DNA of 43,513 nucleotides. Origin: Syntrophobacterales bacterium. Lineage in GTDB: Bacteria; Desulfobacterota; Syntrophia; Syntrophales; UBA2192. The stretch lies in the NCBI GenBank assembly GCA_018053845.1, contig JAGPKU010000009.1:10293-53805 (forward strand). The letters run 5' to 3'. The notes below the pieces were generated by a model. It was given only the letters and a program-made list of their open reading frames with translations, was not told the origin of the DNA and did no database searches. Positions 15,676-43,389 of the stretch are shown piece after piece. Made by a program: the position numbers and the translations under genes. The first letter of the stretch is position 1. Each line of letters begins with the position of its first letter.

Positions 15676-16263
15676 TCAGGCGGCCCGACCCAGGTCGAAG
15701 GCCCTGAGATTCGCCTCGACGATCTTTTCCGGCAGCATCTCCGTGAGGACCCGTTTCCAGTCGCCGGCGTCGACCCCGGGAATGAAACGGGACACGGCGC
15801 CCAGCATGACGGTGTTGACGGCTCTGCGGTTTCCCGCCTTCGCGGCGAGTTCGGGGCCGCTCACCACTTTCACGTTTTCCGCACCGAGGCGGGCCCGCAG
15901 GATTTCGTAGATGTCCTCGGGGTAATCCGCCTCGCCGAGGCTGACCGAGGGAGGATAGATCTCCTCGTCGTTCACGAGCACGAGCCCGCCCGGCTTGAGA
16001 TAATCGAGGTACCGGAGCGATTCGAGTTTCTCGAAGGAGACGATGATGTCGACGTCCCCCCTCTTGGCAAGGGGCGAGTACACCTTCCGGCCGTACCGGA
16101 CGTGGCTCGTGACGCAGCCGCCGCGCTGGGCCATGCCGTGCACCTCGCTCTTCTTGACGTCGTGGCCCTTCCCCATCATGACCTTGCAGATGATGTCGCT
16201 CGCCAGAAGGATCCCCTGTCCCCCGACACCGGCCAGCAGCAGGCTCTTCACGCTGTTTTCCAT
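15676..16263 (-). CDS. iorB: Indolepyruvate:ferredoxin oxidoreductase, beta subunit
   Basis: 195 aa from the ATG at 16261-16263, four nt after the iorA stop; a GTG at 16275 in the same frame would overlap iorA but has its ribosome site too close. It is the gamma-type 2-oxoacid:ferredoxin oxidoreductase domain, with a Gly-rich GVGGQGILLASDI motif near the N-terminus and HGMAQRGGCV about residues 43-52. With IorA it converts aryl pyruvates (indolepyruvate, phenylpyruvate) and CoA to aryl acetyl-CoA, CO2 and reduced ferredoxin. The reaction is reversible and in some anaerobes runs toward amino acid synthesis. The pairing with iorA supports the assignment strongly. Confidence 0.95.
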   Translation of the reverse strand: MENSVKSLLLAGVGGQGILLASDIICKVMMGKGHDVKKSEVHGMAQRGGCVTSHVRYGRKVYSPLAKRGDVDIIVSFEKLESLRYLDYLKPGGLVLVNDEEIYPPSVSLGEADYPEDIYEILRARLGAENVKVVSGPELAAKAGNRRAVNTVMLGAVSRFIPGVDAGDWKRVLTEMLPEKIVEANLRAFDLGRAA

Positions 16264-16267
16264 GACC

Positions 16268-18058
16268 CTATGCACCCTCCCGCATGATCGCTTCCTGCCG
16301 GCAGAGCTGTGCGCAGAGGCTGCAGCCCGTGCACAGGTCCGCGTCGATCACGGCGATCCCCTTCTGTTTCTTGCGCTCCGGTCTCGGGGGCATGCCCGAC
16401 TTCTCGAAATCCTTCCAGGAAATGGCCGGGCATCCGCAGCTCAGACAGACCTTGCACCCGATGCACAGGTCGGGGTCCGTGAAAAAGGGCTTGGCCCGGT
16501 CGGCCTTCTTGCTCATCAACAGCACGCAGGGCGAACGGGAGATGATCAGCGAGGGCCCGTCCTTCGCGAGCTCACGCTTCAGCACGTCCGTCGTGTTCTT
16601 GTAGTCAAGCGGGTCGATGACCTCGACGCTGTCGATGCCCAGGACCTTTCCCAGGGCCGCGAAATCGAGCTCCCGGGTCTTCTCCCCCTGCAGGGTGTAC
16701 CCCGTCGCGGGGTGCTCCTGCATGCCCGTCATCGCCGTCGTGCGGTTGTCGGCGATGATGAAGACGGCGTCGCTGCGGTTGTAGGCCGTGTTGAGCAGCG
16801 TCGTGATCCCCGAGTGGATGAAGGTCGAATCGCCGATGACCCCGACGACCTTCCCCTTCCCTTTCGGCCCCAGCGCCTTGCTCATCCCGTGGGCGATCCC
16901 GATGCTCGCGCCCATGCAGATGCAGCTGTCCATGGCCGACAGGGGCTTCATGTAGGAGAGGGTGTAGCAGCCGATATCGCCCGAGACGAAGGCCTTGGTC
17001 TTGCCCAGGGCGTAGAAGAGCGCCCGGTGCGGGCAGCCGGGGCACAGGTTCGGCGGCCGCGGCGGGATGGTCTGCAGCGTGACGGCCGCGGCGGACGATC
17101 TCCCGGTCACGCCCTGCTCGATCACGCCGGGGTCGAACTCGTTGGTGTAGGGAAAAACGGCCTTGCCGGATACCGCAATCCCCATGGCCCTCACCTGCTC
17201 CTCGATGAAGGGGTCCAGCTCCTCGACGACGTAGAGCGTTTTGACCCTCGAGGCGAAGTCGCGGATCATCTTCTCGGGCAGGGGGTGAACCAGGCCGAGC
17301 TTCAGGTAGGAGTACTCCGGGAAGGCATCCTTGGCGTAGTTGTAGGGCATGCCCGCCGTGATGATGCCCACCTCGGGGGAGCCCATCTCCACCCGGTTGC
17401 CCGGGAAGGTCTCCGCCCACTCGCGGAGAGCCTGCATGCGCTTCTCCACCTCGACGCGCCGGGCACGCGCGTTGACGGGGACCATGACGTACTTGAGGGG
17501 CAGGTGACGGATGTCGGTCCGGTCCCCGACGGCCGACTGCTCTTCGGTCCGGACGACGCTCTTGGAGTGGGACACGCGGGTCGTCGTGCGCAGGAAGACG
17601 GGCGTGTCGAATCGCTCGGAGAGCTCGAAGGCGAGCTTGATGAAGTCCTTGGCCTCCTGGCTGTCGGCGGGCTCCAGCATGGGGATCTTGGCGAACTTGG
17701 CGTAGTTGCGGTTGTCCTGCTCGTTCTGCGAGCTGTGCAGCGAGGGGTCGTCGGCCGTGATGATCACGAGCGCCCCGTTGGTTCCCGTGTAACTGACGGT
17801 GAACAGGGGGTCGGCCGCCACGTTGACGCCCACGTGCTTCATCACCGCCATGGCCCGGGCCCCGGCGAAGGCGGCCCCGATGGCCACCTCGAGCCCCACC
17901 TTCTCGTTGGGCGACCACTCGGCGTAGACCCCTTTGTACTGGGCGAAGGCCTCCAGGATCTCCGTGCTCGGCGTCCCGGGGTAGCCCGCGCCGAAGGTGG
18001 CGCCGCACTCCCAGGCGCCCCGTGCGATCGCCTCGTTTCCCGACATCAGTTCCAGCAT
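16268..18058 (-). CDS. iorA: Indolepyruvate:ferredoxin oxidoreductase, alpha subunit
   Basis: 596 aa, typical IorA length. The N-terminal pyrimidine-binding domain carries GAGYPGTPSTEI (about residues 23-34). A middle transketolase-like region follows, then a thiamine diphosphate domain with CPGCPHR (about 340) and GDSTFIHSG (about 406). At the C-terminus are two 4Fe-4S ferredoxin motifs, CIGCKVCLSCGCP and CTGCSLCAQLC. The complex is cytoplasmic, oxygen-sensitive and specific for aryl pyruvates. GGAG stands 7 nt before the ATG. It follows the TPR membrane protein gene by 19 nt and is followed by iorB. Its presence points to aromatic amino acid catabolism or to their synthesis from aryl acids, and may connect with the Phe-attenuated operon at the window's right end. 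Confidence 0.96.
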   Translation of the reverse strand: MLELMSGNEAIARGAWECGATFGAGYPGTPSTEILEAFAQYKGVYAEWSPNEKVGLEVAIGAAFAGARAMAVMKHVGVNVAADPLFTVSYTGTNGALVIITADDPSLHSSQNEQDNRNYAKFAKIPMLEPADSQEAKDFIKLAFELSERFDTPVFLRTTTRVSHSKSVVRTEEQSAVGDRTDIRHLPLKYVMVPVNARARRVEVEKRMQALREWAETFPGNRVEMGSPEVGIITAGMPYNYAKDAFPEYSYLKLGLVHPLPEKMIRDFASRVKTLYVVEELDPFIEEQVRAMGIAVSGKAVFPYTNEFDPGVIEQGVTGRSSAAAVTLQTIPPRPPNLCPGCPHRALFYALGKTKAFVSGDIGCYTLSYMKPLSAMDSCICMGASIGIAHGMSKALGPKGKGKVVGVIGDSTFIHSGITTLLNTAYNRSDAVFIIADNRTTAMTGMQEHPATGYTLQGEKTRELDFAALGKVLGIDSVEVIDPLDYKNTTDVLKRELAKDGPSLIISRSPCVLLMSKKADRAKPFFTDPDLCIGCKVCLSCGCPAISWKDFEKSGMPPRPERKKQKGIAVIDADLCTGCSLCAQLCRQEAIMREGA

Positions 18059-20483: not shown

Positions 20484-21799
20484 TTCAGCCTGTCGTCCTC
20501 GATGCGGATCCGCACCGTCTTGCCCTTCAGGACGGCCAGACGGTCGATCTCCTTCAGGGCCACCCGCACGTCCCTCTCCCTCGCCTCGTGCGTCGTCATG
20601 ACCACGGGCACGGACCCCGACTTGTCGATCGCCCTGCCCTTCTGGATGACGGCGGCGATGCTGATGTTGTGCTTCCCGAGGATCCCCGAGATCTTCGACA
20701 GCACGCCGGGCCGGTCCAGGGCGGAGAACCGGAAGTAGTAATTGGTCACGATCTCTTCCATGGGCATCAGGTCGATCTCCTCGATCCCGTCCTCCGAGAG
20801 CGTGCGCGACGGGACACGCCGGGAAATCCCCTTCTGGATGTCCCGCGCGATGTCGATCAGGTCGGCCACGACGGCGCTCGCCGTCGGCATCATCCCCGAC
20901 CCCTGACCGTAGAGGAAGACGGAACCCGAGGCGTCGCCGCGGATGTGCAGGGCGTTGTAGTTGCCGTTGACGCTCGCCAGCAGGTGATCGAAGGGGATCA
21001 TGGTGGGGTGGATCCTCGCCTCGACGGCGTCCCCCCGCTGGATCGCGATGGCCAGCAGCTTGATCTTGTAGCCCAGTTCCCGGGCGAACTCGATGTCCTG
21101 CTGGCTCACCCCGGTGATGCCCTCCCGGTAGATCTCCGCGAGGTCGACCCGCTTGCCGTAGGAAAGCGCGAGCACGAGGCCGAGCTTGTGCGCCGTGTCG
21201 ATCCCCTCCACGTCGAAGGTGGGGTCGGCCTCGGCGAAGCCGAGCGCCTGCGCCTCCCGGAGCACCGCCTTGTAGTTCTTGCCCTCGTCGCTCATCTTGG
21301 TGAGGATGAAGTTCGTGGTCCCGTTGAGGATGCTGAAGATGGAGCGGATCCGGTTGGCCGCCAGGCTCTCGCGCAGCGTCTTGATCACGGGGATGGTGCC
21401 CCCGACGCTGGCCTCGAAGCCGATGTTGACCCCGTGCCGCTCGGCGGCCTTGAAGATCTCGTCACCGTAGGTGGCCAGCAGGGCCTTATTGGCCGTCACC
21501 ACGTGCTTGCCCCGGCGGATGGCCTCGAGGATGAAGCCCTTCGCCGGTTCATACCCCCCGACCAGCTCGATGACGATCGAGATCTCCGGGTCGCTCAGGA
21601 CGGCCCGTGCGTCGCGGGTCAGGATCTTTCGGTCCACCGCCACCGGGCGGGGCGTTTTCAGGTCGAGGTCGGCGATTTTCCGGATGACGATCCTCGCCCC
21701 GAGACGCTTCTCGATCAGACCGCCGTTTTCCGCGAGAAGCTTCACGGTTCCCGAGCCGATGTTGCCGAAGCCGATCAGGCCGGCCTGGATGGTCTTCAT
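20480..21799 (-). CDS. hom: Homoserine dehydrogenase
   Basis: 439 aa. An N-terminal Rossmann domain with GLIGFGNIGSGTV (about residues 8-20) binds NAD(P)H. The catalytic domain carries KHVVTANKALLA, with the conserved Lys, and ASVGGTIP. A C-terminal ACT domain (about 355-430) suggests feedback control, usually by threonine. It reduces aspartate semialdehyde to homoserine for threonine and methionine synthesis. AGGAG stands 7 nt before the ATG. A consensus promoter lies 64 nt upstream. The gene is translationally coupled to the apgM-like gene by an ATGA overlap. Confidence 0.97.
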   Translation of the reverse strand: MKTIQAGLIGFGNIGSGTVKLLAENGGLIEKRLGARIVIRKIADLDLKTPRPVAVDRKILTRDARAVLSDPEISIVIELVGGYEPAKGFILEAIRRGKHVVTANKALLATYGDEIFKAAERHGVNIGFEASVGGTIPVIKTLRESLAANRIRSIFSILNGTTNFILTKMSDEGKNYKAVLREAQALGFAEADPTFDVEGIDTAHKLGLVLALSYGKRVDLAEIYREGITGVSQQDIEFARELGYKIKLLAIAIQRGDAVEARIHPTMIPFDHLLASVNGNYNALHIRGDASGSVFLYGQGSGMMPTASAVVADLIDIARDIQKGISRRVPSRTLSEDGIEEIDLMPMEEIVTNYYFRFSALDRPGVLSKISGILGKHNISIAAVIQKGRAIDKSGSVPVVMTTHEARERDVRVALKEIDRLAVLKGKTVRIRIEDDRLK

Positions 21800-21811
21800 G
21801 CGCTGGCTCCT

Positions 21812-21850
21812 GTCTGCACCGCCTGCGGCGCGGGCCGCCGTGCAGGACGT
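21812..21850 (-). other. Structured leader upstream of hom
   Basis: On the minus strand the leader can fold as CTGCAC (outer arm) with GTGCAG, enclosing GCGGC with GCCGC. It sits between the promoter at 21863-21890 and the hom start. No leader peptide with Thr or Met runs and no T-tract were seen, so classical attenuation is not supported. Confidence 0.35.
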
Positions 21851-21862
21851 TCGAAGGCTCCG

Positions 21863-21890
21863 ATTATAGTGAAAATCGTTGTCTTGTCAA
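21863..21890 (-). promoter_or_regulatory. Consensus sigma70 promoter for hom-apgM
   Basis: On the minus strand, TTGACA (21885-21890) and TATAAT (21863-21868) match consensus exactly, with a 16-bp spacer. It lies just after the recG stop codon, so hom-apgM-thioesterase should be transcribed independently of recG. Confidence 0.75.
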
Positions 21891-21908
21891 AAGAAATCCA
21901 AGGCGGCG

Positions 21909-24383
21909 TCAGCCCGTCCGGGCCAGATCGAGACGGCTCTCCCACCTCCACAGCAGGACCTCCCGCAGCAGCGCGTGCTCCGGCCTCTGGAGGCGGGGGT
22001 CTTTCTCCGCCAGTCGGAACGCCTCCGCGCGCGCATCGCCCAGCAGCCTGCCGTCGCGCAGGATGTCGGCCACGCGGAAATCGGGGATGCCGGATTGGCG
22101 CGTCCCCATCATCTCCCCGGGTCCCCGGATCTCGAGGTCCGCCTCCGCGATCCGGAAGCCGTCCTGGGTCTGCTCCATGATGCCGAGGCGCTTGCGCGCG
22201 TTCTCGGATCCCCGGGAGCCGGTCATCAGGATGCAGTAGGAGGGAATGTCGCTGCGGCCCACCCGCCCCCTGAGCTGGTGGAGCTGCGCGAGGCCGAACC
22301 GCTCGGCATGCTCGATCACCATCAGGGAGGCCCGGGGGATGTCGATGCCCACCTCGATCACGGTGGTGGCCACCAGGATGTCGAGGGCACGGCCGTTGAA
22401 GGCCTGCATGATCCGCTCTTTTTCCTGCGCCTTCATCCGGCCGTGGATCAGCCCGACACGGAGCTCGGGAAACACATCCCGCTGCAGGTGCTCGGCCATG
22501 CGGGTGGCGTCCCTGAGATCGAGGGCCTCCGACTCCGAGACGAGGGGGTAGACGATGAAGACCTGGTTGGACTTCGCGATCTCCTTCCGGATGATCTCGT
22601 AGACCCGGGGCCTCTCCCGCTCGTAGAAGACCTTCGTCCGGACGGGCGTCTTCCCCGGGGGCATCTCGTCGATGACCGAGATGTCCAAATCCCCATAGAC
22701 GGTCATCGCGAGCGTTCGGGGGATGGGGGTCGCCGTCATGACCAGCACGTCCGGGTTGGCGCCCTTGGCGCGCAGGGTGGCGCGCTGCACGACCCCGAAG
22801 CGATGCTGCTCGTCGACGACCACGAGGCCCAGCTTCCGGAAGTCCACCCCTTCCTGGATGAGGGCGTGGGTGCCCACGACGATGTGGACCTCTCCCGCCT
22901 CGATCTGCCGCGCGATCTCCCTCTTTTCCGGGCTGCGCAGGCCGCCCAGCAGCAGGGCCGTCTTGAGGCCCAGCGACTCCGCCCACCGCCCGACGTTGCG
23001 GTGATGCTGTTCCGCGAGGATCTCCGTCGGGGCCATGAGGGCCGCCTGGTAGCCGTTCTCGCAGGCCGTCAGCATGGCCGCCATGGACACGACCGTCTTA
23101 CCGCTGCCCACGTCGCCCTGCAGCAGACGGTGCATCGGAGACGGCCGCGCCATGTCCCCCTGGATCTCCGCGATCACGCGGCTCTGTGCCGCCGTGAGCC
23201 CGAAGGGCAGGATGGACAGGAACCGGCCCGTCAGTTCCCCCCCCGTCTTGAAGGCGATCCCCTCGTCGAGGACGTTTCCCGCATGCTTCAGGGCCATGGC
23301 GAGCTCGAAATAGAACAGCTCGTCGAAGATGAGCCGGCGATGGCCTTCGGAACGCATGGCGTTGAGTCGGTTCACGTCCTCCTCCGGGCCGGGGAAATGC
23401 ACGGCGCGGACGGCCTCGATGATGTCGATCAGGCCCTGCCGCTCGCAGATGTCCCGCGGGATCGGCCCCGGCATGTAGCGGGCGTAGTCCTCGACGGCGT
23501 GCAGGAGAATCCGGCGCAGGTGCTTCTGCCCGAGCCCCTCCGTCTCGGAGTAGATCGGGACGATCCGCTTGAAATGCAGATGGCCTTCCTCCCCCTCCTC
23601 GAGGATCTCGTAATCGGGATGGATCATCTCGGGCTCGAACCGGTAGACCCGCATCTCGCCGGTCAGGATGACCCGGCTGCCCGGCTTGAAGACGTTGCGC
23701 AGATAGGCAAAGCTGCCCTTGAACCACTTCGCCTTCAGGGCCGCCGAGTCGTCCCGGATCACCGCCTCGAAGACCTTCCGCTTGCGGTACGGCTGGATGT
23801 CGGCCCGGACAACGGTGCCGACGACGGTTTCCTTCCTCCCCGCCTCGGCACGGGCGATGGGCTTGATGTGACGGCGGTCCTCGTACTTCCGGGGCAAAAA
23901 CAGGAGGAGGTCCTCGACGGTTTTGAGCCCCTTGCGTTCGAGGAGCCGGCCGATCTTGGGTCCCACCCCCTTGACGAACTGGGCCGGCCGGGTGAGCTTC
24001 TCCACGGCCTCCTCGAGCGAGGCGAGGGCCTCCCGCGGGACACCCTGCGGCACGGCACGGCCGTCGTCGTCCCCGGAGCCGGCAAGTTCCCCCTTCAGGG
24101 CGTCGATGCAGGCGAGGCCCTCGGAGACCCGCCTCTTTCGGTCCTCCGGGGATGCGGCGTCGAAGCCCGAAACGATCCCGTCGAGCGCCGCCAGCCGCAT
24201 CGCCATGCGGCCGGCGCGCTCGGTGTCCGTCACCTTCTGAGGGAGCACGTCACGCAGGCCGGCGATCTTTTTCCGGAGCGGCTCTTCGAGATTGCGCACG
24301 AGGGTCAGGTTCCGAAAGTCATTGCCGGCGGAAAAGCGCAGGGGGGTCTCGATCTTCTCCAAGGCCTGTTTCAGGGTTTCCAT
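21909..24383 (-). CDS. recG: ATP-dependent DNA helicase RecG
   Basis: 824 aa, longer than E. coli RecG (693). The extra length is an N-terminal helical extension of about 130 residues, as in several non-enteric RecG proteins. A wedge/OB domain follows (about 195-330), then the helicase core with Walker A GDVGSGKT (about 424-432), the DEQH box (about 524) and C-terminal motifs IV-VI ending in QLRGRVGRS. It reverses stalled forks and migrates branched DNA. It is read from the ATG at 24381-24383, with GAGG upstream. It stands alone between the purM promoter region and the hom operon. Confidence 0.97.
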   Translation of the reverse strand: METLKQALEKIETPLRFSAGNDFRNLTLVRNLEEPLRKKIAGLRDVLPQKVTDTERAGRMAMRLAALDGIVSGFDAASPEDRKRRVSEGLACIDALKGELAGSGDDDGRAVPQGVPREALASLEEAVEKLTRPAQFVKGVGPKIGRLLERKGLKTVEDLLLFLPRKYEDRRHIKPIARAEAGRKETVVGTVVRADIQPYRKRKVFEAVIRDDSAALKAKWFKGSFAYLRNVFKPGSRVILTGEMRVYRFEPEMIHPDYEILEEGEEGHLHFKRIVPIYSETEGLGQKHLRRILLHAVEDYARYMPGPIPRDICERQGLIDIIEAVRAVHFPGPEEDVNRLNAMRSEGHRRLIFDELFYFELAMALKHAGNVLDEGIAFKTGGELTGRFLSILPFGLTAAQSRVIAEIQGDMARPSPMHRLLQGDVGSGKTVVSMAAMLTACENGYQAALMAPTEILAEQHHRNVGRWAESLGLKTALLLGGLRSPEKREIARQIEAGEVHIVVGTHALIQEGVDFRKLGLVVVDEQHRFGVVQRATLRAKGANPDVLVMTATPIPRTLAMTVYGDLDISVIDEMPPGKTPVRTKVFYERERPRVYEIIRKEIAKSNQVFIVYPLVSESEALDLRDATRMAEHLQRDVFPELRVGLIHGRMKAQEKERIMQAFNGRALDILVATTVIEVGIDIPRASLMVIEHAERFGLAQLHQLRGRVGRSDIPSYCILMTGSRGSENARKRLGIMEQTQDGFRIAEADLEIRGPGEMMGTRQSGIPDFRVADILRDGRLLGDARAEAFRLAEKDPRLQRPEHALLREVLLWRWESRLDLARTG

Positions 24384-34917: not shown

Positions 34918-36219
34918 CTATTTCCAGCTGCGCTCGTCGACGATCGCCTTGTATCCCTCGGCGAGACTCCCCGGCGGGACCTCCTCGAGACGGTCGACCC
35001 GGACCGTGCAGATCTCTGCGAAATACCGTTCGAACGGGGCAAGGGCCTCCTTGCCCCGTTCGGTTTCCGGCGCCTCGACGCGGACCGTGAGGACGTCCCG
35101 GTTCGCCGTCCGGGTCACGACGACCTGGAACTTCCAGCGCGGGAAGCGCTCGGCGATTTTCCGCAGCTGGCTGGGCGCCACGAACAGGCCCCTGACCTTC
35201 ACGGCCTCCCCTACCCGCCCGGCGATTCCGGCAAGCCTCGGCGAGGTCCTACCGCAGGGACAGCGACCGGGGAGAAGCCTCGCGAGGTCCCCCGTGCCGA
35301 ATCGCATCAGGAAGAAGATGCCGTTGGGCCGCGTGACGACCACCTCGCCCAGTTCGCCGGTCGGAACCTCCCGGCCCGTCTCGGGATCGAGGATCTCGAC
35401 GATGACTTCCTCGCAGAGGTGCCACCCCGCTTTCTCCCGGCACTCGTAGGCCACGTCGCCGACCTCGGTGGCCCCGTACATCTGGTAGGTGTCGATCCCG
35501 TACCTCTTCTCGAATTCCTCCCGGAGCGCGGGGTGGAGCGGTTCCGCTGCGAAGGAGGCCCTGCGGACCCTGAAGTCCTTCCGGAAGTCGTGGCCCGCCT
35601 CCTCGGCCTTCTCGATGACGGCCATGAGAAAGCTCGGGGTGCCGGTGTACCCGGTCACCCCCAGGTCGCGGATCAGCTGGACCTGGATGGCGGCACTCGA
35701 TGCGCCGGAGGGAACGACCGTCGCCCCGACCCTCCGCAGCCCGCCGTGGAAGGTGAGACCGGCTGCGACGAGGTGATAGGAGAACGCGTTGAGGACGACG
35801 TCCCCGGGCCCGAAGCCCGCGGCATGGTAGGCCCTCGCCCAGATCGGGTCCGACTCCGAGAGGTGAGGCTCGTAGACCGGCCCCGGCGAGGTGAAGATCC
35901 GGTCGATCGCGGCCTCCGGGTTGCCCAGGCCCGCGTAGGGAGGGTCATCGATCTGCATCTGGACGATCTTCTCCCGCGAGATGACGGGGAGTCTGCTCAG
36001 CAGATCGAAGGCGCTGCTCTTCACGGGCTTGACGCCCAGCGACTCGATCTGCTTGCCGATGAGCGGGGATTTCCGTGCGGCCAGCCGCATCATGGCCGCC
36101 AGTTCCTTCGCCTGGTCCTCCCGGCGTTTCTCGGGGCTCCTCGTTTCCTTCTCGTCGAAATAGGCTCTCTTTGTTTTCACGTCCCGTAGATCCCTCGGCA
36201 TCCTTGATCTCTTTTTCAC
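34918..36219 (-). CDS. Phenylacetate-CoA ligase-like protein with altered P-loop
   Basis: 433 aa, the length of PaaK. PaaK-type blocks are present: GYTGTPSFLMAVIEKAE, YGATEVGDVAYEC, FGTGDLARLL with CPCGRTSPR, and a C-terminal KVRGLFVAPSQLRKI segment. The adenylate phosphate loop, normally SSGTTGxP, reads TSPGPVYEP, so ATP-dependent ligation may be weak or the enzyme may act differently. A GTG start (36217-36219) is chosen, with GGCGGG seven bases upstream; ATG at 36201 is an alternative. It is the last gene of the Phe-attenuated liv-type operon, 15 nt after livF, suggesting it acts on the imported substrate. The substrate (phenylacetate or another aryl acid) is inferred from family only. Confidence 0.8.
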   Translation of the reverse strand: MKKRSRMPRDLRDVKTKRAYFDEKETRSPEKRREDQAKELAAMMRLAARKSPLIGKQIESLGVKPVKSSAFDLLSRLPVISREKIVQMQIDDPPYAGLGNPEAAIDRIFTSPGPVYEPHLSESDPIWARAYHAAGFGPGDVVLNAFSYHLVAAGLTFHGGLRRVGATVVPSGASSAAIQVQLIRDLGVTGYTGTPSFLMAVIEKAEEAGHDFRKDFRVRRASFAAEPLHPALREEFEKRYGIDTYQMYGATEVGDVAYECREKAGWHLCEEVIVEILDPETGREVPTGELGEVVVTRPNGIFFLMRFGTGDLARLLPGRCPCGRTSPRLAGIAGRVGEAVKVRGLFVAPSQLRKIAERFPRWKFQVVVTRTANRDVLTVRVEAPETERGKEALAPFERYFAEICTVRVDRLEEVPPGSLAEGYKAIVDERSWK

Positions 36220-36234
36220 CCGATTGCCCGCCTT

Positions 36235-37038
36235 TCAGAGCCACCGCTTGCGCCGCTTGTACGCCTTGACGTCCCGGTACGATTTCGCCGTGCCGGCGGC
36301 CCCCATGCCCAGGTAGAATTCCTTGACGTCGGGGTTTTCCCGGAGATCCTCGGCACGACCCTCCATGACGATCTTTCCGTTTTCCATGACGTAGCCGTAG
36401 GTCGCGATCTGGAGGGCCATGTTCGCGTTCTGCTCCACCAGGACGATCGTGGTGCCGTCCTCGCGGTTGATGCGCTCGATGATCTGAAAGATCTCCTTCA
36501 CGATCAGGGGCGCAAGCCCCAGCGAGGGCTCGTCCAGCAGCAGGAGCTTCGGGTGCGCCATGAGCGCGCGGCCGATGACGAGCATCTGCATCTCGCCGCC
36601 GCTGCAGTACCCGGCCAGCGTCTTGCGTCGCTCCACGAGGGCCGGGAAATAGTGGTAGACCTTCTCCAGGTCCTGCCGGAAGGGCTTCCCCCACCGCGTG
36701 GCCGTGCCGACGCGGAGGTTTTCCTCGATGGTGAGGTACTTGAACGGCTGGCGGCCCTCGAGGACCTGGATGATCCCCGCACGGGTGATCGTCTCGGGGG
36801 GGTGGTTGTGGATCGGCCGGCCGTCGAAGAGGATGCTGCCCTCGGTCACCTCGCCGTTCTCCGGCTTCAGGAGCCCCGAGACGGCCTTGAGGGTCGTCGT
36901 CTTGCCCGCCCCGTTGCTGCCCAGCAGCGAGACGATCTGCCCCCGCTCGACGGCAAGCGAGACGCCCTTGAGGACCTGGATCACGTCGGAGTAGACGACG
37001 CTGATGTTGTTGATGACGAGCAGCTTGCCTTCAGCCAT
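36235..37038 (-). CDS. livF: Branched-chain-type ABC transporter ATP-binding protein LivF
   Basis: 267 aa. Walker A GSNGAGKT (residues 40-47), signature CSGGEMQ (variant of LSGGQ) and Walker B LLLLDEPSLGLAP are all present. It hydrolyses ATP with LivG to drive the LivHM permease of the hydrophobic amino acid transporter (HAAT) family at the inner membrane. A basic C-terminal extension of about 25 residues (ending YKRRKRWL) exceeds E. coli LivF and may interact with the neighbouring ligase, a guess. GAGG stands a few nt before the ATG. It is separated from livM by an 82-nt G-rich gap. Confidence 0.95.
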   Translation of the reverse strand: MAEGKLLVINNISVVYSDVIQVLKGVSLAVERGQIVSLLGSNGAGKTTTLKAVSGLLKPENGEVTEGSILFDGRPIHNHPPETITRAGIIQVLEGRQPFKYLTIEENLRVGTATRWGKPFRQDLEKVYHYFPALVERRKTLAGYCSGGEMQMLVIGRALMAHPKLLLLDEPSLGLAPLIVKEIFQIIERINREDGTTIVLVEQNANMALQIATYGYVMENGKIVMEGRAEDLRENPDVKEFYLGMGAAGTAKSYRDVKAYKRRKRWL

Positions 37039-37056: not shown

Positions 37057-37121
37057 CCCGGTCCCCGAGACCCGGTCCCCGGGCCCCTCATCCCGTTTTC
37101 CTGTCCCCTGCCCCCGGACCC
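37057..37121 (-). repeat. G-quadruplex-like gap between livM and livF
   Basis: The coding (minus) strand of this gap has G-runs with short loops: GGGG, GGGG, GGG, GGGG and GGG (37087 down to 37057), plus GGG, GGGGG and GGGG at 37121-37105. GGGGACCGGG occurs twice. Such RNA could fold as a quadruplex and dampen expression of livF and the PaaK-like gene. No terminator is present. Function is inferred. Confidence 0.45.
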
Positions 37122-38191
37122 TAATAGGAGAACGGCCACAGCTTGAAGCTCGACTTCACGATTCTCCACACCTCCGCCAGTCCCCGCGGCTCGAAGAGGA
37201 TGAAGAGCACGATGGCCAGGCCGAAGACGAACTCCCGCAGCGGGGCGAGCGTCAGCTCCACGCCGGCGACGCCGCCCATGTTCATGATCGTGTCGGTGAC
37301 CCATCGCAGGCCCTCGTTGAGCAGCGTGATGAAGACGGTGCCGAAAATCGCCCCGGAGATGCTTCCGAGCCCCCCGATGATCACCATCGCGATGTACTCC
37401 ACGGAAAGGCCGAGGTTGAAGGGTTCCGCCGTGATGCTGATCATGTAGTAGCCCCACAGGGCGCCGGCCACCCCGGCATAGAACGAACTGACGGCAAAGG
37501 AAAGCAGCTTGTACGGGAAGATGGGGATCCCCATCCCCTCCGCGGCCCGGTCGTTGTCCCGGATGGCCACGAAGGCGCGCCCGTAGCGTGTCCGCATGAG
37601 GTTCACGGCCCCGAAGATCATGACGGCCGCCGTGGCGTAGATCACGAAGAAAAAGCCGACGTCCCCGGCCACCGGGATCCCGAACAGCGACGGTGCGGGC
37701 AGCGTGATCCCCATGGTCCCCCCGGTGACGCTCTCCCAGTGGACGAGGACGTACTCGATGATGAACTGGCCCGCCAGCGTCGCGATCGTCAGATAGAGCC
37801 CCTTGAGCCTGCCGGAGGGAATCCCGAAGACCATGCCGACGACGGCGGTCGCAAGCCCCGCCAGCGGCACGACGGCCAGGAAGGGCACCCCGTAGGTCAC
37901 GGCGAGGATCCCCGCCGCATACGCGCCCACCCCGAAGAAGGCCCCGTGGCCCAGGGAGATGAGGCCCGTGTACCCCACGAGGATGTTGAGCCCGAGGGCC
38001 GCGATGGACGAAATCCCGATGAGGTTCACCACGTAGAGCAGGTAGGGCGTCGACAGCCAGGGGACGAGGACGAAGAGCGACGTGAGCCCCGCGGCGGCCC
38101 AGACCCTTCCGAAATCGGTCTCGAAGACGGCCAGCTCCTCCCGGTAGTGGATCTTGTAGTTCCCGCAGGGTCGGAAGCGAAGGGTTCTCAT
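37121..38191 (-). CDS. livM: Branched-chain-type ABC permease LivM
   Basis: 356 aa from the ATG at 38189-38191, with GGAAAGG nine bases upstream; GTG at 38197 is a poorer choice. It is a polytopic inner-membrane protein with about eight to ten hydrophobic helices and the family motif GHGAFFGVGAYAAGIL. A second motif, YGRAFVAIRDNDRAAEGMGI, is the cytoplasmic EAA-type loop that docks the ATPase. It pairs with LivH to form the channel for the imported substrate (amino acid or aryl acid). It follows livH with an 18-nt gap. Confidence 0.95.
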   Translation of the reverse strand: MRTLRFRPCGNYKIHYREELAVFETDFGRVWAAAGLTSLFVLVPWLSTPYLLYVVNLIGISSIAALGLNILVGYTGLISLGHGAFFGVGAYAAGILAVTYGVPFLAVVPLAGLATAVVGMVFGIPSGRLKGLYLTIATLAGQFIIEYVLVHWESVTGGTMGITLPAPSLFGIPVAGDVGFFFVIYATAAVMIFGAVNLMRTRYGRAFVAIRDNDRAAEGMGIPIFPYKLLSFAVSSFYAGVAGALWGYYMISITAEPFNLGLSVEYIAMVIIGGLGSISGAIFGTVFITLLNEGLRWVTDTIMNMGGVAGVELTLAPLREFVFGLAIVLFILFEPRGLAEVWRIVKSSFKLWPFSY

Positions 38192-38209
38192 AGGCACCGG
38201 CCTTTCCCG

Positions 38210-39088
38210 TCACACGCGTTCGATTTCGACAAGCCCGAAGAGCCCGTAGGGCTTCACCAGGAGGATGAACACCAGCGCGACGTAGGGCACGATGTCCCGC
38301 AGCGACGGCGAGAGGTACCCCCCCGTGAAGGTCTCCAGCAGCCCGATGATGAGGCCGCCGATGATGGCCCCGCCGATCGAGTCGAGCCCGCCGAGGATGA
38401 CGACGGGGAACACCTTGAGCCCGATCGAGGAGAGTTCGTGGACGTTGATGCCGTTGATGATCCCCAGCACGATCCCGCTGATGCCCGCCACCATGGCCGC
38501 GATGCCCCAGGAAAGGGCGAACACGCGCCTGACGTGGACCCCGAGGGAGAGCGCCGCCGCCTGGTTGTCCGCCACGGAGCGCATGTAGATGCCCTGCGAG
38601 GAGAACTTGAAAAACAGGCCGAACATCAGCAGGAAGAGGCTCCCGATGATGACGGCCGCCACGTAGACGGGGGGCACCTGGACGATGCCCCATTGGATCC
38701 CGAGCCACTCCGGCAGGAACTCCGGGTAGTTGTAGAGGTTTCCGCCCCACACCAGCAGCATCCCGCCCTTGAACATGGCGGCGAGCCCCACGGTGAGCAT
38801 GATGACCTGGATCAGCGGCTCGCCGATCAGCGGTCGCAGGAAGATCCGTTCGATGACGAACCCCAGGACGAAGGCCCCCGCCAGCGTGACGACGAAGGCG
38901 AGCGCCACGGGGAGCTTCGCCCAGGTGACGAGGGCCAGAAACAGGAAGGCCCCGAAGGCAAGGATCTCGCCGTGGGCGAAGTTGAGCACGCTCGACGATT
39001 TGAAGATCATGACGAAGCCCATGGCGGACAGGCCGTAGAGAAATCCGATGCTCACGCCGTTGAGCAGCAGCTGCAGAAAGAAATCCAT
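38210..39088 (-). CDS. livH: Branched-chain-type ABC permease LivH
   Basis: 292 aa with about eight membrane segments. The N-terminus (FLQLLLNGVSIGFLYGLSA) and the loop FKSSSVLNFAHGEILAFGA match LivH. The cytoplasmic coupling loop is YMRSVADNQAAALSLGV. It forms the translocation pore with LivM. AGGGG lies eight bases before the ATG, 10 nt after the acyl-CoA ligase stop. The order ligase-livH is unusual compared with enteric liv operons, where no ligase is present. Confidence 0.95.
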   Translation of the reverse strand: MDFFLQLLLNGVSIGFLYGLSAMGFVMIFKSSSVLNFAHGEILAFGAFLFLALVTWAKLPVALAFVVTLAGAFVLGFVIERIFLRPLIGEPLIQVIMLTVGLAAMFKGGMLLVWGGNLYNYPEFLPEWLGIQWGIVQVPPVYVAAVIIGSLFLLMFGLFFKFSSQGIYMRSVADNQAAALSLGVHVRRVFALSWGIAAMVAGISGIVLGIINGINVHELSSIGLKVFPVVILGGLDSIGGAIIGGLIIGLLETFTGGYLSPSLRDIVPYVALVFILLVKPYGLFGLVEIERV

Positions 39089-39098
39089 GCGGGTCCCC

Positions 39099-41072
39099 TC
39101 ATTGCACGTCGTGGATTTTCACCGTCGTTTCGATCTTCCCCACCTGGCCGTCGCGGTAGCGGACCTGGCTCTTCACTTCGAGTTCCCGGAGGTTGCGGTA
39201 CATGGCCTCGATGAGGTTGAGATACAGTCCGTAGACGAAGCGACGACGGACCTTGCCGGTCCTCGTCAGCTCCTCGTCGTCTGCGTCGAGCAGCTTGTAG
39301 AGCAGGATGAGCTTGCGGATCCTCATGTAATCCGGCAGCCGCTCGTTGACCGCCCGCACCTCGCCGAGGATCAGCTCCTCCACCTTCGGCTGCTGGGAGA
39401 GGTCCGTGTAGGTCGTGTAGGGGATCATCCGCTCCTCGGCCCAGTTTCCCACGTTGCCCATGTCGATGTTGATGAAGGCCGAGAGGTAGGGCCGTCCCTC
39501 GCCGAAGATCACCGCCTCCTTGATGAAGGGGCTGAACTTGAGGCGTGTCTCGATGAAATCGGGGGAGAAGGCGGCGCCGGACTTGTTGCGGATGATCTCC
39601 TCCTTGCGCCCGATGATGACGAGGTGCCCGTCGGCATCCAGGTAGCCCGCGTCGCCCGTGCGGAGCCATCCGTCCCGGAAGGCCTCCTCGGTGGATTTGA
39701 AGTCGTTGTAGTAGCCCGCAAAGTTCGAGGGGCTCTTCACGAGAACCTCCTGGTCCTCGGCGATCCGCACCTCCGTCCCCGGCAGGGCCTTTCCCACCGT
39801 CTCGGGCTTCACCTCCCCGTCGGGCTGCACCTGGAAGATGCCGCCCGCCTCGGTGAGGCCGTAGCACTGCTTGAGGTTGAGGCCGCAGGCGCGGAAGAAG
39901 CGGATGACCTCGGGGCTGATCGGGTGCCCGCCCGTGTAGGCGCTCTTGAGGCCGAGGCAGCCCACGCGGTCCATGAGAGGACGGAACACGAGCGACGACG
40001 CCGCCCGCCGCATCGCGCGCAGGGCGGGCGACGGGGCCTGCTGCGCGGCCTCCGCGTCGACGGCCCTCCGGCCGATCCGCTCGGCGAGCCCGAAGAGCGT
40101 CCGCTTCACGAGCCCGGCATCGGCCATCCGGACGCGGATCTTCGAGGCCAGGTCCTCCCAGAATCTCGACGAGGTGACGATGACGTCGGGGCCGATCTCC
40201 CGGAAGTCCGTCTCGATCGTCTCGGCCGTCTCGGGGAAGTTCATCGACAGGCCGCCCACCAGGGCGATGCCCGCGCCCCACATCTGGTCGACGATCCAGG
40301 CCGGCGGCGTGATCGAGAGCCAGTTGGAGCCGATGCCGATGGGTGCGGCCTCGATCCACTTGCGCGCCATGGACGTGAAATTCCGGTGCGTCAGCATGGC
40401 CAGCTTCGGCAGCCCCGTCGTCCCCGAGGTCTGGATCATCACGGCCACGTCCTCGGGCCGGCCGCGCCAGAGCTCCGACGGGAAGAGCTGGGGCTGCTCC
40501 TGCTCGAGGGCGTCGCCCCGCTGCAGCAGTTCCCGGAAGCTCTGCAGCCAGGGGTCGCCGCGGTAGTTGCGCATCCCCGTGGGGTCCACGTAGACGACGG
40601 ACCGCACGAACCCCAGCCGGGAGCGGGTCTCGAGGAGCTTGTCGACCTGTTCCTGGTCCTGCGCGACGACCACCGTCGGCCGGAACCGCTTGAGCGCCTC
40701 GGCCAGCTCGTCGGCGATCGACGAGGTGAAGAGGTTCACCGTGACGCAGCCTGCGGCCTGGGCCCCCAGCTCGCTGTAGAGCCACTCGGGGTGGTTGTTC
40801 ATGACGATGGCGACGGAATCCCTCCGGCGCACTCCGAGCGCGAGAAGGCCGAGCGCCGTGCGCCTCACGAAACGGAAATAGTCCTCCCAGTTGACCGTCT
40901 GCCAGATGCCGTAGGCCTTCTCCCGGATCGCGACGTGCGCCGGCCCCAGACGCTTGGCCTGCTCGGCCAGGATCTGGGGGAGGGTGAACTTGCCATAGGC
41001 ATCGAGCGTGGCCCCGTCGGGCTTCACCGGCCCGGCGCCGTTTTGATGCCCCCTGCGACCCGAGCCGATCAT
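39099..41072 (-). CDS. AMP-forming acyl/aryl-CoA ligase inside the ABC operon
   Basis: 657 aa from the ATG at 41070-41072, which overlaps the livG stop (ATGA); the frame extends to 41273 but only as livG shadow. It belongs to the long-chain acyl-CoA synthetase group of ANL enzymes. The phosphate loop TSGTTGLPK is at 215-223, YGLTEAG at 404-410 and RTGD at 471-474. The C-terminal TRTGKVRR near residue 600 replaces the usual PKTxxGK with a Lys still present. It activates a carboxylate as acyl-AMP, then acyl-CoA, in the cytoplasm. Its place between livG and livH suggests it traps the imported substrate as a CoA ester. Confidence 0.9.
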   Translation of the reverse strand: MIGSGRRGHQNGAGPVKPDGATLDAYGKFTLPQILAEQAKRLGPAHVAIREKAYGIWQTVNWEDYFRFVRRTALGLLALGVRRRDSVAIVMNNHPEWLYSELGAQAAGCVTVNLFTSSIADELAEALKRFRPTVVVAQDQEQVDKLLETRSRLGFVRSVVYVDPTGMRNYRGDPWLQSFRELLQRGDALEQEQPQLFPSELWRGRPEDVAVMIQTSGTTGLPKLAMLTHRNFTSMARKWIEAAPIGIGSNWLSITPPAWIVDQMWGAGIALVGGLSMNFPETAETIETDFREIGPDVIVTSSRFWEDLASKIRVRMADAGLVKRTLFGLAERIGRRAVDAEAAQQAPSPALRAMRRAASSLVFRPLMDRVGCLGLKSAYTGGHPISPEVIRFFRACGLNLKQCYGLTEAGGIFQVQPDGEVKPETVGKALPGTEVRIAEDQEVLVKSPSNFAGYYNDFKSTEEAFRDGWLRTGDAGYLDADGHLVIIGRKEEIIRNKSGAAFSPDFIETRLKFSPFIKEAVIFGEGRPYLSAFINIDMGNVGNWAEERMIPYTTYTDLSQQPKVEELILGEVRAVNERLPDYMRIRKLILLYKLLDADDEELTRTGKVRRRFVYGLYLNLIEAMYRNLRELEVKSQVRYRDGQVGKIETTVKIHDVQ

Positions 41073-41929
41073 CGGGCACCCCCTGCCCGCACCGGGTCGC
41101 CGCCCCCGTCGGGCCGCTCCCCGAGGTAGGCGCGGACGACCTCGGGGTTGTGCTGGATCTCCTCCGGCGTGCCCTCGGCGAGCTTCACGCCGAAGTTGAG
41201 GACCATGACCCGCCGGGAGATGCTCATGACGATCGACATGTCGTGCTCGACGAGGAGCATGGTCTGCCCCCACGATTCGGAGAGCTCCAGGAGAAAGCGG
41301 ACCATGTCCTCCTTCTCTTCCAGGTTCATCCCGGCGAAGGGCTCGTCCAGGACGAGCAGCTTCGGCTCGAGGGCGAGCGCGCGCCCCAGCTCCACGCGCT
41401 TGCGCATCCCGTAGGGCAGCGACCCCACCGGTTTCTTGCGGATCGCCTGGATCTCGAGGAAGTCGATGATCTCTTCGACGAGCCGCCGCTGCCGGATCTC
41501 CTCGCTTCTGGCCTTGGCGGAGAAGAGGGACGCCGCGGCCAGGCCGTAGCGGCAGTGCAGGTGGCGGGCCAGCAGGAGGTTCGCCAGGACCGTCATCCCC
41601 GGGAAGAGCTCGATGTTCTGGAAGGTCCTCCCGATGCCGTGCTCGATGTGCCGGTGCGTGGGCAGGCCGGAGATGTCCCTGCCGTTGAAGAGGATCCGGC
41701 CTTCCTGGGCCTTGTAGTACCCCGTGATGCAGTTCAGCAGGCTCGTCTTCCCGGCGCCGTTGGGGCCGATGACGGAGACCAGCTCGCCCGTGGAGACCCT
41801 CAGGTCCACCTTGCTGACCGCCGTGATTCCCCCGAATCGAAGGGTCAGCCCCTCCACGGCGAGCTCCGCCTCGCGCTGCGCCGGCGTTCTCGATGCGAAG
41901 ATGGACGGTTCGCCCCGATAGGCCTTCAT
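41069..41929 (-). CDS. livG: Branched-chain-type ABC transporter ATP-binding protein LivG
   Basis: 286 aa. Walker A GPNGAGKT (55-62), a signature-region variant LPYGMRKRVELGRAL and LLVLDEPFAGMN are present, as in the LivG subgroup. It works with LivF to power the permease. GGAG stands 7 nt before the ATG, 10 nt after livK. Its stop codon overlaps the start of the acyl-CoA ligase as ATGA, so ATPase and ligase are translationally coupled. The long N-terminus (about 22 residues before the first strand) is atypical but not otherwise remarkable. Confidence 0.95.
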   Translation of the reverse strand: MKAYRGEPSIFASRTPAQREAELAVEGLTLRFGGITAVSKVDLRVSTGELVSVIGPNGAGKTSLLNCITGYYKAQEGRILFNGRDISGLPTHRHIEHGIGRTFQNIELFPGMTVLANLLLARHLHCRYGLAAASLFSAKARSEEIRQRRLVEEIIDFLEIQAIRKKPVGSLPYGMRKRVELGRALALEPKLLVLDEPFAGMNLEEKEDMVRFLLELSESWGQTMLLVEHDMSIVMSISRRVMVLNFGVKLAEGTPEEIQHNPEVVRAYLGERPDGGGDPVRAGGAR

Positions 41930-41939
41930 GCGCCGTCTC

Positions 41940-43145
41940 CTACTTGAGATGCCGGATCTTCTCTTTGCCGGGCGTGTAGAAGTCCGTCAGCGGCTTGAAG
42001 GAACCGTCCTCGCGGACCTGGACGATCCGGCCCCGGAAGGACGCCTCGTGGTTGGTCTTCGTGTACGTCACCGGGGGCACGATCCCGCCGAAGTCCTCGT
42101 TCACGAAGGACTCCATGGCCCGGTTGATCGTCTCGCGGTCCACCTTCCCGTGGTTCTGCCGGGCGCGCAGGGCCGCCCGCTCCACGATCATGGCCACGAC
42201 GACCCCTTCCCAGTAGGCGGCATCGAAGCGGCTCACGGTCTTGTAGCGCTTCCAGAGCTCCTTGAGCGTCGCGATGCCGGTCCCCCGGTCTCCGGGAAGC
42301 CCGCCGGGGAACTGCATCTTCAGACGGTCGCGGATGAGCCCTTTGCCCAGCTTGAAGAAATCGGGGTCCGTCGAGGTCCAGGTGCCGAAGAACTGCGGGT
42401 TGTACTGGATGCGGTCGGCGCTCTTGAAGGCCGTCACGATGGTGGCCGGCAGCATCTGCATGAAGACGTACTCGGCCCCGTTCTTCTTGAGGCGCAGAAG
42501 CTCCGTCGTCAGGTCGACGGTCTTCGGCGGGAACTCCTCGATGGAGACGATGTGGATGCCGTTGGCCTTCGCGTACTCCTGGCTCGGCTTGTGGATGGAG
42601 CGGCCGTAGGCGTTGTTGTAGGTGAGAAGCCCCACTTTGGGCGGCTCTGCCCCCTTGTGGACGGACTTGATGTACTCGAGGACGGCCGCGCAGTCGAGCC
42701 GATAGCTTCCGAAGGGCAGGTACATGTAGTCGACGGGTTTCTCCAGCAGCTCCCAGCTCGTGGAGTAGTTGAGGGTCGGGATCTTGTAGCCTTGGACGAG
42801 GGGTTTCGCGGCGAGACCCTCGCCCGCCCCCCAGGTGAGGATCATGTCGACCTTGTCCTGGATGGCGAACTTCTTGACGGCCGCCACGGCCTCGGGCACC
42901 TTGTACCCCGTGTCGACGAGAATCAGCTCGACGGGTCGGCCCCCGATGCCGCCCTTGACCTCGTTGACGTAGCGGAGGTAGTCCTGCGTCCCCTTCGCGT
43001 GATACTGCCCCCACGTCGATGCCGGGCCGGTGAGGTTGATGGCCGCCCCCACCTTGATCGGCGATTCCGCCCGCGCCGAGACGGGCGGCGTACAGAGCGC
43101 CGCCGCCAGGAGCCCCGCCATGACGATCGTGATCGAACGCTTCAT
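41940..43145 (-). CDS. livK: Branched-chain-type ABC substrate-binding protein LivK
   Basis: 401 aa with a Sec signal peptide (MKRSITIVMAGLLAAALC..., cleaved near SARA-ES). It is a periplasmic binding protein of the LivJ/LivK (Peripla_BP_6) type: IKVGAAINLTGPASTWG at the mature N-terminus and LILVDTGYKVPEAV match the family. The ligand is probably a hydrophobic or aromatic amino acid or an aryl acid; it cannot be read from sequence. AGGGAGG at 43154-43160 is the ribosome site. It is the first structural gene after a Phe-rich leader peptide and two terminator hairpins, so its transcription is probably controlled by charged tRNA-Phe. Confidence 0.95.
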   Translation of the reverse strand: MKRSITIVMAGLLAAALCTPPVSARAESPIKVGAAINLTGPASTWGQYHAKGTQDYLRYVNEVKGGIGGRPVELILVDTGYKVPEAVAAVKKFAIQDKVDMILTWGAGEGLAAKPLVQGYKIPTLNYSTSWELLEKPVDYMYLPFGSYRLDCAAVLEYIKSVHKGAEPPKVGLLTYNNAYGRSIHKPSQEYAKANGIHIVSIEEFPPKTVDLTTELLRLKKNGAEYVFMQMLPATIVTAFKSADRIQYNPQFFGTWTSTDPDFFKLGKGLIRDRLKMQFPGGLPGDRGTGIATLKELWKRYKTVSRFDAAYWEGVVVAMIVERAALRARQNHGKVDRETINRAMESFVNEDFGGIVPPVTYTKTNHEASFRGRIVQVREDGSFKPLTDFYTPGKEKIRHLK

Positions 43146-43168
43146 CGTGCTTTCCTCCCTGGAAAATG

Positions 43169-43193
43169 AAAAGGGCCGTCATCGTCACGGCCC
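43169..43193 (-). terminator. Second terminator-like hairpin T2 before livK
   Basis: On the minus strand, a 7-bp stem GGGCCGT/ACGGCCC (43187-43193 with 43173-43179), a 7-nt loop and TTTT (43169-43172), then TT-rich sequence. It lies between T1 and the livK ribosome site. Its 5' arm (GGCCGTG, 43186-43192) can pair with the 3' arm of T1 (CACGGCC, 43207-43213), so T1 and T2 can be coupled. Confidence 0.45.
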
Positions 43194-43199
43194 GCGTCG

Positions 43200-43237
43200 A
43201 AAAAAAGGCCGTGGGCAGCTTCGGTCTGCCCACGGCC
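43200..43237 (-). terminator. Attenuator terminator T1 in the livK leader
   Basis: On the minus strand, a perfect 12-bp stem (GGCCGTGGGCAG at 43226-43237 with CTGCCCACGGCC at 43207-43218), a 7-nt loop and seven T (43200-43206). It sits downstream of the leader stop codon and 55 nt before livK, on the operon strand, so it must be bypassed for expression. Confidence 0.85.
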
Positions 43238-43274
43238 CGGTCGATCAACTGCAGTCAGGCGCTATGGGCAGACC
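43223..43274 (-). promoter_or_regulatory. Antiterminator pairing (segments 2:3) of the Phe attenuator
   Basis: GGTCTGCCCA at 43265-43274 (end of the leader ORF) is a perfect 10-nt complement of TGGGCAGACC at 43223-43232 (5' arm and loop of T1), so the two pairings exclude each other. In the leader, GGGCAG at 43314-43319 can instead pair with CTGCCC at 43266-43271, and CTTC with GAGG extends it past one bulge, giving the 1:2 pause hairpin. Confidence 0.75.
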
Positions 43275-43339
43275 TCCCGAAAGAAGCCGAAAAAGCCGAA
43301 AAAAGCGAAGAAGCTGCCCGCGTCCATGTGCCTGTTCAT
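43262..43339 (-). CDS. Phe-rich leader peptide of the liv-type operon
   Basis: 25 aa from ATG (43337-43339) to TAG (43262-43264), with GAGG six bases before the start. Residues 10-20 read FFAFFGFFGFF: eight Phe of eleven, encoded by five TTC and three TTT. The ribosome would stall here when charged tRNA-Phe is short. The Phe codons follow segment 1, and the stop codon abuts segment 2 of the attenuator, as required for control of T1. Comparable known leaders are E. coli PheL (pheA) and PheM (pheST). Here the controlled genes are a HAAT-type ABC transporter and two CoA ligases. The peptide itself probably has no other function. Confidence 0.85.
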   Translation of the reverse strand: MNRHMDAGSFFAFFGFFGFFREVCP

Positions 43340-43359
43340 CCTTTACCTCTTGATTGAGG

Positions 43360-43389
43360 CTTCTACCCGATCGCGGCAGGTCCTGTCAA
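43360..43389 (-). promoter_or_regulatory. Sigma70 promoter of the Phe-attenuated liv-type operon
   Basis: On the minus strand, TTGACA (43384-43389), an 18-bp spacer and TAGAAG (43360-43365). Transcription would start near 43354, about 15 nt before the leader peptide ATG. Confidence 0.6.

Follow-up and report, generated by a model that had tools for sequence, protein, structure and literature searches.

Liv-type transporters accompanied by CoA ligases are common among anaerobes, and what they carry is for the most part guesswork. One operon of this kind lies in the window analyzed here (43,513 nt at one end of a contig in the draft genome of a Syntrophobacterales bacterium), and it is preceded by a leader with a run of Phe codons. 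This raises the question of whether such an operon is controlled by phenylalanine, and what the control tells about the transported compound.

The Phe-leader region was read from the sequence at window positions 43169-43389, on the minus strand upstream of livK (Table 1). The promoter, ribosome site, 25-codon leader with eight Phe codons, 10-nt antiterminator, terminator and 1:2 hairpin reported in the first-pass annotation were all located there, the terminator comprising 13 pairs with U7. The eight Phe codons fall within 11 residues (43312-43280). Region 2 (43274-43265) is perfectly complementary, in 10/10 pairs, to TGGGCAGACC (43232-43223), and the 1:2 hairpin is formed by GGGCAG (43319-43314) and CTGCCC (43271-43266). 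The T1 hairpin (43238-43206) has G-C in 10 of its 13 pairs and is followed by the U7 run. A second terminator-like hairpin, T2 (43193-43173 for the hairpin proper), which the first-pass annotation did not mention, lies between T1 and the livK ribosome site. The -10 element TAGAAG is below the threshold of the promoter scanner owing to its last base, and it recurs in relatives.

Table 1. Features of the Phe leader and the operon downstream of it (window coordinates).
Feature	Position	Strand	Remarks
-35 element TTGACA	43384..43389	-	sequence; relatives have TTGAC(A) in the corresponding position
-10 element TAGAAG, weak, 18-nt spacer	43360..43365	-	sequence; TATAAT-like in several relatives
Leader Shine-Dalgarno AGAGGT	43345..43350	-	sequence; SD-like in 56/64 leaders
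Leader peptide ORF MNRHMDAGSFFAFFGFFGFFREVCP*, 25 codons	43262..43339	-	stop TAG 43264-43262
Region 1 GGGCAG	43314..43319	-	pairs with region 2; proposed protector of region 2 in the untranslated leader
Region 2 (A) GGTCTGCCCA	43265..43274	-	antiterminator 5' strand, at the end of the leader ORF
Region 3 (B) GGGCCGTGGGCAGACC	43223..43238	-	T1 5' arm and antiterminator partner (43232-43223)
Intrinsic terminator T1 (13 pairs, loop 7; 3' arm = region 4 (C))	43200..43238	-	U7 43206-43200
Second hairpin T2 GGGCCGTGACGATGACGGCCC (regions 5, 6 = D, E), then U4	43169..43193	-	D complementary to C
livK Shine-Dalgarno GGGAGG	43154..43159	-	sequence
livK-like substrate-binding protein (Peripla_BP_6), first operon gene	41940..43145	-	
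livG-like ATPase	41069..41929	-	
AMP-dependent acyl-CoA ligase (FadD-like)	39099..41273	-	true start perhaps about 60-70 codons inside the ORF, judged from relatives
livH-like permease	38210..39088	-	
livM-like permease	37121..38197	-	
livF-like ATPase	36235..37038	-	
PaaK-like CoA ligase, last gene of the run	34918..36219	-	

The leader folds with an energy of -63 kcal/mol (z -3.4), and 0/200 shuffles are as good. The whole window was scanned on both strands for this design (an ORF in which 11 residues include at least six Phe, with a strong hairpin and T run no more than 110 nt downstream); the livK leader is the only site, and 40 Markov-simulated windows yield no match. The Rfam scan of the leader revealed no leader or T-box family, only sRNA matches under the gathering score. 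A P6 match under that score (window 43192-43237, plus strand) was discarded as an artefact, being the reverse strand of T1.

Judged by this anatomy, the region is in all likelihood a transcription attenuator of the ribosome-mediated kind, which responds to charged tRNA-Phe and governs livK-livG-CoA ligase-livH-livM-livF-(paaK). Leader anatomy and conservation indicate that the ribosome behaviour, the response to Phe and the direction of control are very probably as follows. When Phe is plentiful, the ribosome would pass the Phe codons, reach the stop codon and cover region 2; with region 2 covered, region 3 would pair with region 4 (T1), and RNA polymerase would terminate. When Phe is scarce, the ribosome would stall in the Phe run and cover region 1, the 2:3 pairing would form, T1 would be blocked, and the operon would be read. 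In the untranslated leader 1:2 would form, and T1 would terminate. The points counted against this reading are the weak -10 element, the lack of an Rfam leader family, the invariance of the 2:3 (A:B) pairing and the predicted persistence of T2 in the ON state in 38/43 leaders, the last two considered below.

Conservation was studied in 92 non-redundant upstream regions of livK orthologues, with duplicate loci counted once; 91 of them had enough sequence. The relatives are Syntrophales (Syntrophaceae), mostly represented by metagenome-assembled genomes. Region 2 and T1 are found upstream of livK in 82/91 usable loci, and in these a Phe run precedes them wherever the contig reaches that far. The leader is present across 66-91% LivK identity and also in a second order (G187). 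The leaders start with ATG (59) or GTG (5) and contain from 3 to 8 Phe. On average 5.5 of 13 codons in the leader frame are Phe codons, compared to 2.5 and 2.7 in the other frames, and TTT and TTC are interchanged synonymously (339/93).

The A:B pairing is intact in 99% of the alignment cells and beats shuffles in 78/78 leaders. Its best support comes from the ACC in the loop of T1: these bases take no part in T1 pairing and are almost invariant, as expected from A:B alone. Being nearly invariant, A:B gives no covariation test. Pairing is maintained through changes on both sides in four predicted pairs, of which three belong to T1. The first-pass annotation expected relatives to have conserved Phe runs and alternating stems with compensatory changes in both the 2:3 and the 3:4 stem; the Phe runs and alternating stems are indeed conserved, and the compensatory changes are seen in the terminator (3:4) stem, the 2:3 stem being too invariant to show any. 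The Phe attenuator is thus real as an anatomical and evolutionary object.

Nine livK loci (L103-L109, L111, L112), with 60-65% LivK identity, lack both region 2 and T1. All nine leaderless proteins have Asp in LivK position 106, in the loop beside the expected ligand site of the fold, while all leader-bearing proteins have Gly or Ser here. The leader may go together with one kind of LivK binding pocket; the evidence for this is weak, as it reflects a single split in the LivK family. Five of the leaderless loci (L106-L109, L112) share a recurring upstream TGAATGA..TCATTCA element, possibly a repressor operator.

Three leader designs can be distinguished. Long leaders with both T1 and T2 occur in the genus of the window and in many families, and long leaders with T1 and without T2 in Smithella and its kin. 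The third design, found in 13 sequences, is a short leader that ends in FFFFF, with the stop codon immediately upstream of region 2; the short-leader sequences placed by genome (G187 and G283) belong to another order. The 1:2 pairing beats shuffles in 56/65 long leaders. It is absent from the short type, where region 2 pairs with the linker in 7/13 sequences; such pairing with the linker was rejected for the long leaders, being no better there than in shuffles. Common to the three designs is that region 2 would be covered once a ribosome had reached the stop codon.

The first-pass annotation treated the livK leader as isolated, whereas it turns out to belong to a group of similarly built attenuators found throughout the lineage. 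A search with a covariance model built on the livK leader detects further leaders of the same design in nearly every relative. In the genome of the window itself, the leader MDSTHIRNFRFWFSYYFYGQVCPSLRRT precedes aroF-pheA, and a WWW leader precedes trpE. At this locus (L229, G000:C46:63500-74000) the F/W/Y leader stands before aroF and pheA with more aro genes downstream. Both the aroF and the trpE leader there have tandem terminators, and some 40 relatives also possess the aroF leader. A second acyl-CoA ligase is preceded by a readable Phe leader in three further genomes; in a fourth one (L231) the layout is alike, with the ORF not closed before T1. No Phe leader was found within 1.5 kb directly before pheA or iorA; the mixed F/W/Y leader of the aroF-pheA operon is about 2.5 kb upstream of pheA.

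The leader residues follow the regulated gene: WWW for trpE, F/W/Y for aroF, and pure Phe for livK and the second CoA ligase. This match of leader codons and downstream genes is the strongest argument for a Phe sensor, rather than a U-rich accident, before livK.

Several other loci were noted in the same search. Two near-identical loci of the same genome (L239 and L240, in G000:C21 and G000:C60) carry a WWW leader with T1 and T2 before Phenol_MetA_deg (PF13557) genes, which looks like Trp attenuation of a putative outer-membrane protein. A candidate Ile leader, MESMMLNITAATIIISIIIIGEVPAG, precedes a terminator at L243 (G019:C12:50999-51123, minus strand). In the wider phylum, the weaker matches that were inspected precede livK or the gene for 2-amino-3,7-dideoxyheptulosonate synthase, an enzyme providing an alternative entry to the aromatic pathway; leader-like matches before this gene occur in the distant phylum members L210, L213, L215 and L223.

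The second terminator is frequent among livK leaders, and it is absent from many (the Smithella type and the short type). As the 43 aligned livK leaders had been chosen by a strong C:D duplex, the C:D pairing in that alignment is biased; T2 was therefore counted without this bias, in leaders where a hairpin with a T run comes after T1. Defined so, it is present in 47/81 livK leaders (some hairpins being weak) and in 49/51 other attenuators. The T2 5' arm (D) is complementary to the T1 3' arm (C), and coupling of T1 and T2 is likely, judging by the sequences. One reading that this complementarity suggests is a relay, in which A:B would free C, C would capture D, and T2 could not form; it would need an order of synthesis in which C:D is formed before E is made. 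Equilibrium folding was dropped as a proof of the relay: with A:B enforced, D:E is ahead of C:D in 38/43 leaders, and the C:D relay is favoured in 5/43.

Two alternative explanations concern the leader itself. One accepts T1 as real and takes the U-rich stretch for a protein or small-RNA site, the Phe peptide being incidental. It gains something from the nucleotide conservation of TTTTTTAGCTTT, which exceeds the need of Phe codons, but most leaders have a start codon and a Shine-Dalgarno sequence, and the frame is held across the three designs. Moreover, Phe codons are in twofold excess in the leader frame and change synonymously, and the parallel WWW or F/W/Y leaders keyed to trpE and aroF are hard to reconcile with an untranslated stretch. 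This explanation is very improbable. The other accepts attenuation and sees T2 as a mere backup terminator, similar to T1 by ancestry or by a preferred terminator core; we give it slightly less than an even chance. The lead of D:E over C:D in equilibrium folding and the existence of the Smithella-type and short-type leaders agree with a backup role. Against it, the cores of T1 and T2 change together between leader classes: in 79 leaders with readable cores the variable core position is C-G in 45, T-A in 24, T-G in 7 and mismatched in 3 (Fisher p 5e-11, uncorrected for kinship and mostly reflecting the contrast of livK and aroF leaders). C:D duplexes are also stronger than all 500 shuffles, both overall and within each leader class, and in two lineages D is altered along with C and not with E, so that D at times fits C and is mismatched with E. 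Apart from the attenuators, these genomes have few terminators with the GCCGTGG/CCACGGC core; those with the CCATGG core are found elsewhere too. Finally, a pure backup would stop the ON transcript as well. An efficient T2 would block read-through in the ON state because it stays formed, unless pairing during transcription prevents it; in the species of the window its U run is short (U4).

As for the regulated genes, the order livK-livG-ligase-livH-livM-livF given in the first-pass annotation is the same in 9/9 genomes read, among which one represents a different order of the phylum, and the PaaK-like gene follows livF in 5/9. The parts of a HAAT (liv-type) transporter, namely the binding protein, two permeases and two ATPases, are all recognized by Pfam above the cut-offs, and the NCBIfam models for E. 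coli LivK, LivF, LivG, LivH and LivM all score under their curated cut-offs. Both CoA ligases of the operon are relatives of broad acyl-CoA ligases without a specific equivalog match; the last gene has 171.8 bits with the NCBIfam PaaK equivalog (cut-off 646 bits), and its nearest solved structures are phenylacetate-CoA ligases. The LivK model matches 3lkb with Z 45.1 and rmsd 2.5 over 363 residues. The fold was dropped as a guide to the ligand, as its structural neighbours include binders of amino acids as well as of aromatic acids (among them 3-phenylpyruvate and p-coumarate).

The first-pass annotation suggested that the leader reveals the substrate class of the transporter. This holds in part: by the leader, expression is very probably tied to Phe supply, which does not reveal the identity of the cargo. 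Since attenuation would turn the operon on in Phe shortage, the product of the operon should relieve that shortage. Phe import is the simplest option, and import of an aromatic acid feeding Phe synthesis would agree better than catabolism with the direction in which the operon is controlled. Three features suggest an acid that is taken up and activated: the ligase situated among the liv genes, the second ligase with a Phe leader, and the similarity of the last gene to phenylacetate-CoA ligases. Less certain still than the T1-T2 coupling is the proposal that an aromatic acid, taken up and activated through the operon, can be used for Phe synthesis. Indolepyruvate ferredoxin oxidoreductase would provide a route to Phe by converting arylacetyl-CoA into arylpyruvate. 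This enzyme works in the reductive direction in other anaerobes. It is described in the opposite direction, from arylpyruvate to arylacetyl-CoA (PMC5109826). The iorAB genes are in the window at 15676-18058, outside the livK operon and separated from it by unrelated genes; the ORF at 21796-22986 has no Pfam match. Where a single contig of a relative carries livK and iorA together, iorA is 16-30 kb downstream in 15/16 genomes, and in 14/15 of these the two genes have the same orientation. A need for salvage through a missing pheA was rejected: pheA is present in 54/60 relatives, and salvage would therefore be an option, not a need. The comprehensive scheme, which combines a Syntrophales attenuator set with tandem terminators and a six-segment relay (A:B and C:D for on, B:C and D:E for off) with a pure-Phe member serving aromatic-acid salvage to Phe (import, CoA activation and reductive carboxylation of arylacetyl-CoA by indolepyruvate ferredoxin oxidoreductase), is tentative and, taken as a whole, rather unlikely.

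The same genes allow two other explanations. The transporter may import phenylalanine itself, being ON in Phe hunger, with the CoA ligases as unrelated passengers. Uptake of an amino acid under its own attenuator is the simplest logic, and valine is bound in the top structural neighbour of LivK; at the same time, passengers would hardly be expected inside the liv genes in 9/9 genomes, or under their own Phe leader in three or four, and the LivK fold is undecisive for the reasons given above. We consider Phe import with passenger ligases possible, although doubtful. Alternatively, the operon may degrade an aromatic or fatty acid, with the Phe leader signalling growth state rather than a pathway. 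The broad affinities of both ligases would allow this, but an operon for Phe catabolism would need the reverse of being ON in Phe shortage, and leaders of the same genomes use specific residues matched to their genes; degradation therefore appears unlikely.

The Phe attenuator before livK can be compared with known systems. In enterics, pheA and pheST have a Phe-rich translated leader, a 1:2 protector, a 2:3 antiterminator and a 3:4 terminator with a U run. The livK leader shares with them the short Phe-rich translated leader, the 1:2 and 2:3 pairings and the 3:4 terminator with its U run. It differs in its occurrence in Syntrophales, in its target (a HAAT transporter with CoA ligases), in the location of region 2 at the end of the leader ORF, where a terminating ribosome could cover it, and in the second terminator that follows the first one in many members. 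The phe operon is listed among those controlled by attenuation (PMC10989985), and pheST attenuation has been described in gamma-proteobacteria (PMC1262725).

The his attenuator has AB, CD and EF stem-loops with alternative BC and DE pairings, and uridines follow its last stem-loop only (PMC10989985). Like the livK leader, it is a chain of alternating pairings with the set chosen by ribosome position; unlike it, the livK leader has a hairpin and a U run in both T1 and T2, so that two terminators would be coupled. Conserved complementary triples have been described in the trp attenuators of Actinobacteria (PMC1262725). There, too, conserved complementary segments are shared by antiterminator and terminator over large distances, while in the livK leader complementarity reaches the second hairpin. 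The uORFC-13-1 motif of Acholeplasma, a Phe-coding uORF before aroF (PMC8632094), resembles the livK leader as a Phe-coding leader beside a terminator, and its target is a gene of the aromatic pathway; it differs by its unrelated lineage and sequence, its biosynthetic target and its Phe codons, of which there is at least one and no long run. A literature search, with thin coverage of subscription journals, found no Phe attenuators in this lineage, no tandem-terminator attenuators and no reductive carboxylation of phenylacetyl-CoA. With the Phe attenuator of livK, regulation of a familiar type acts on a new target, and its design is a variant by virtue of the tandem, probably coupled terminators.

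The tandem co-varying terminators are a design feature without description in the literature open to search. In Syntrophales, leaders of one common design precede trpE, aroF, livK and further genes. Throughout an entire order of syntrophs, whose members are mostly known from assembled genomes alone, the conserved Phe attenuator very probably links one liv/CoA-ligase operon to the supply of Phe, and it makes a vague liv annotation testable.
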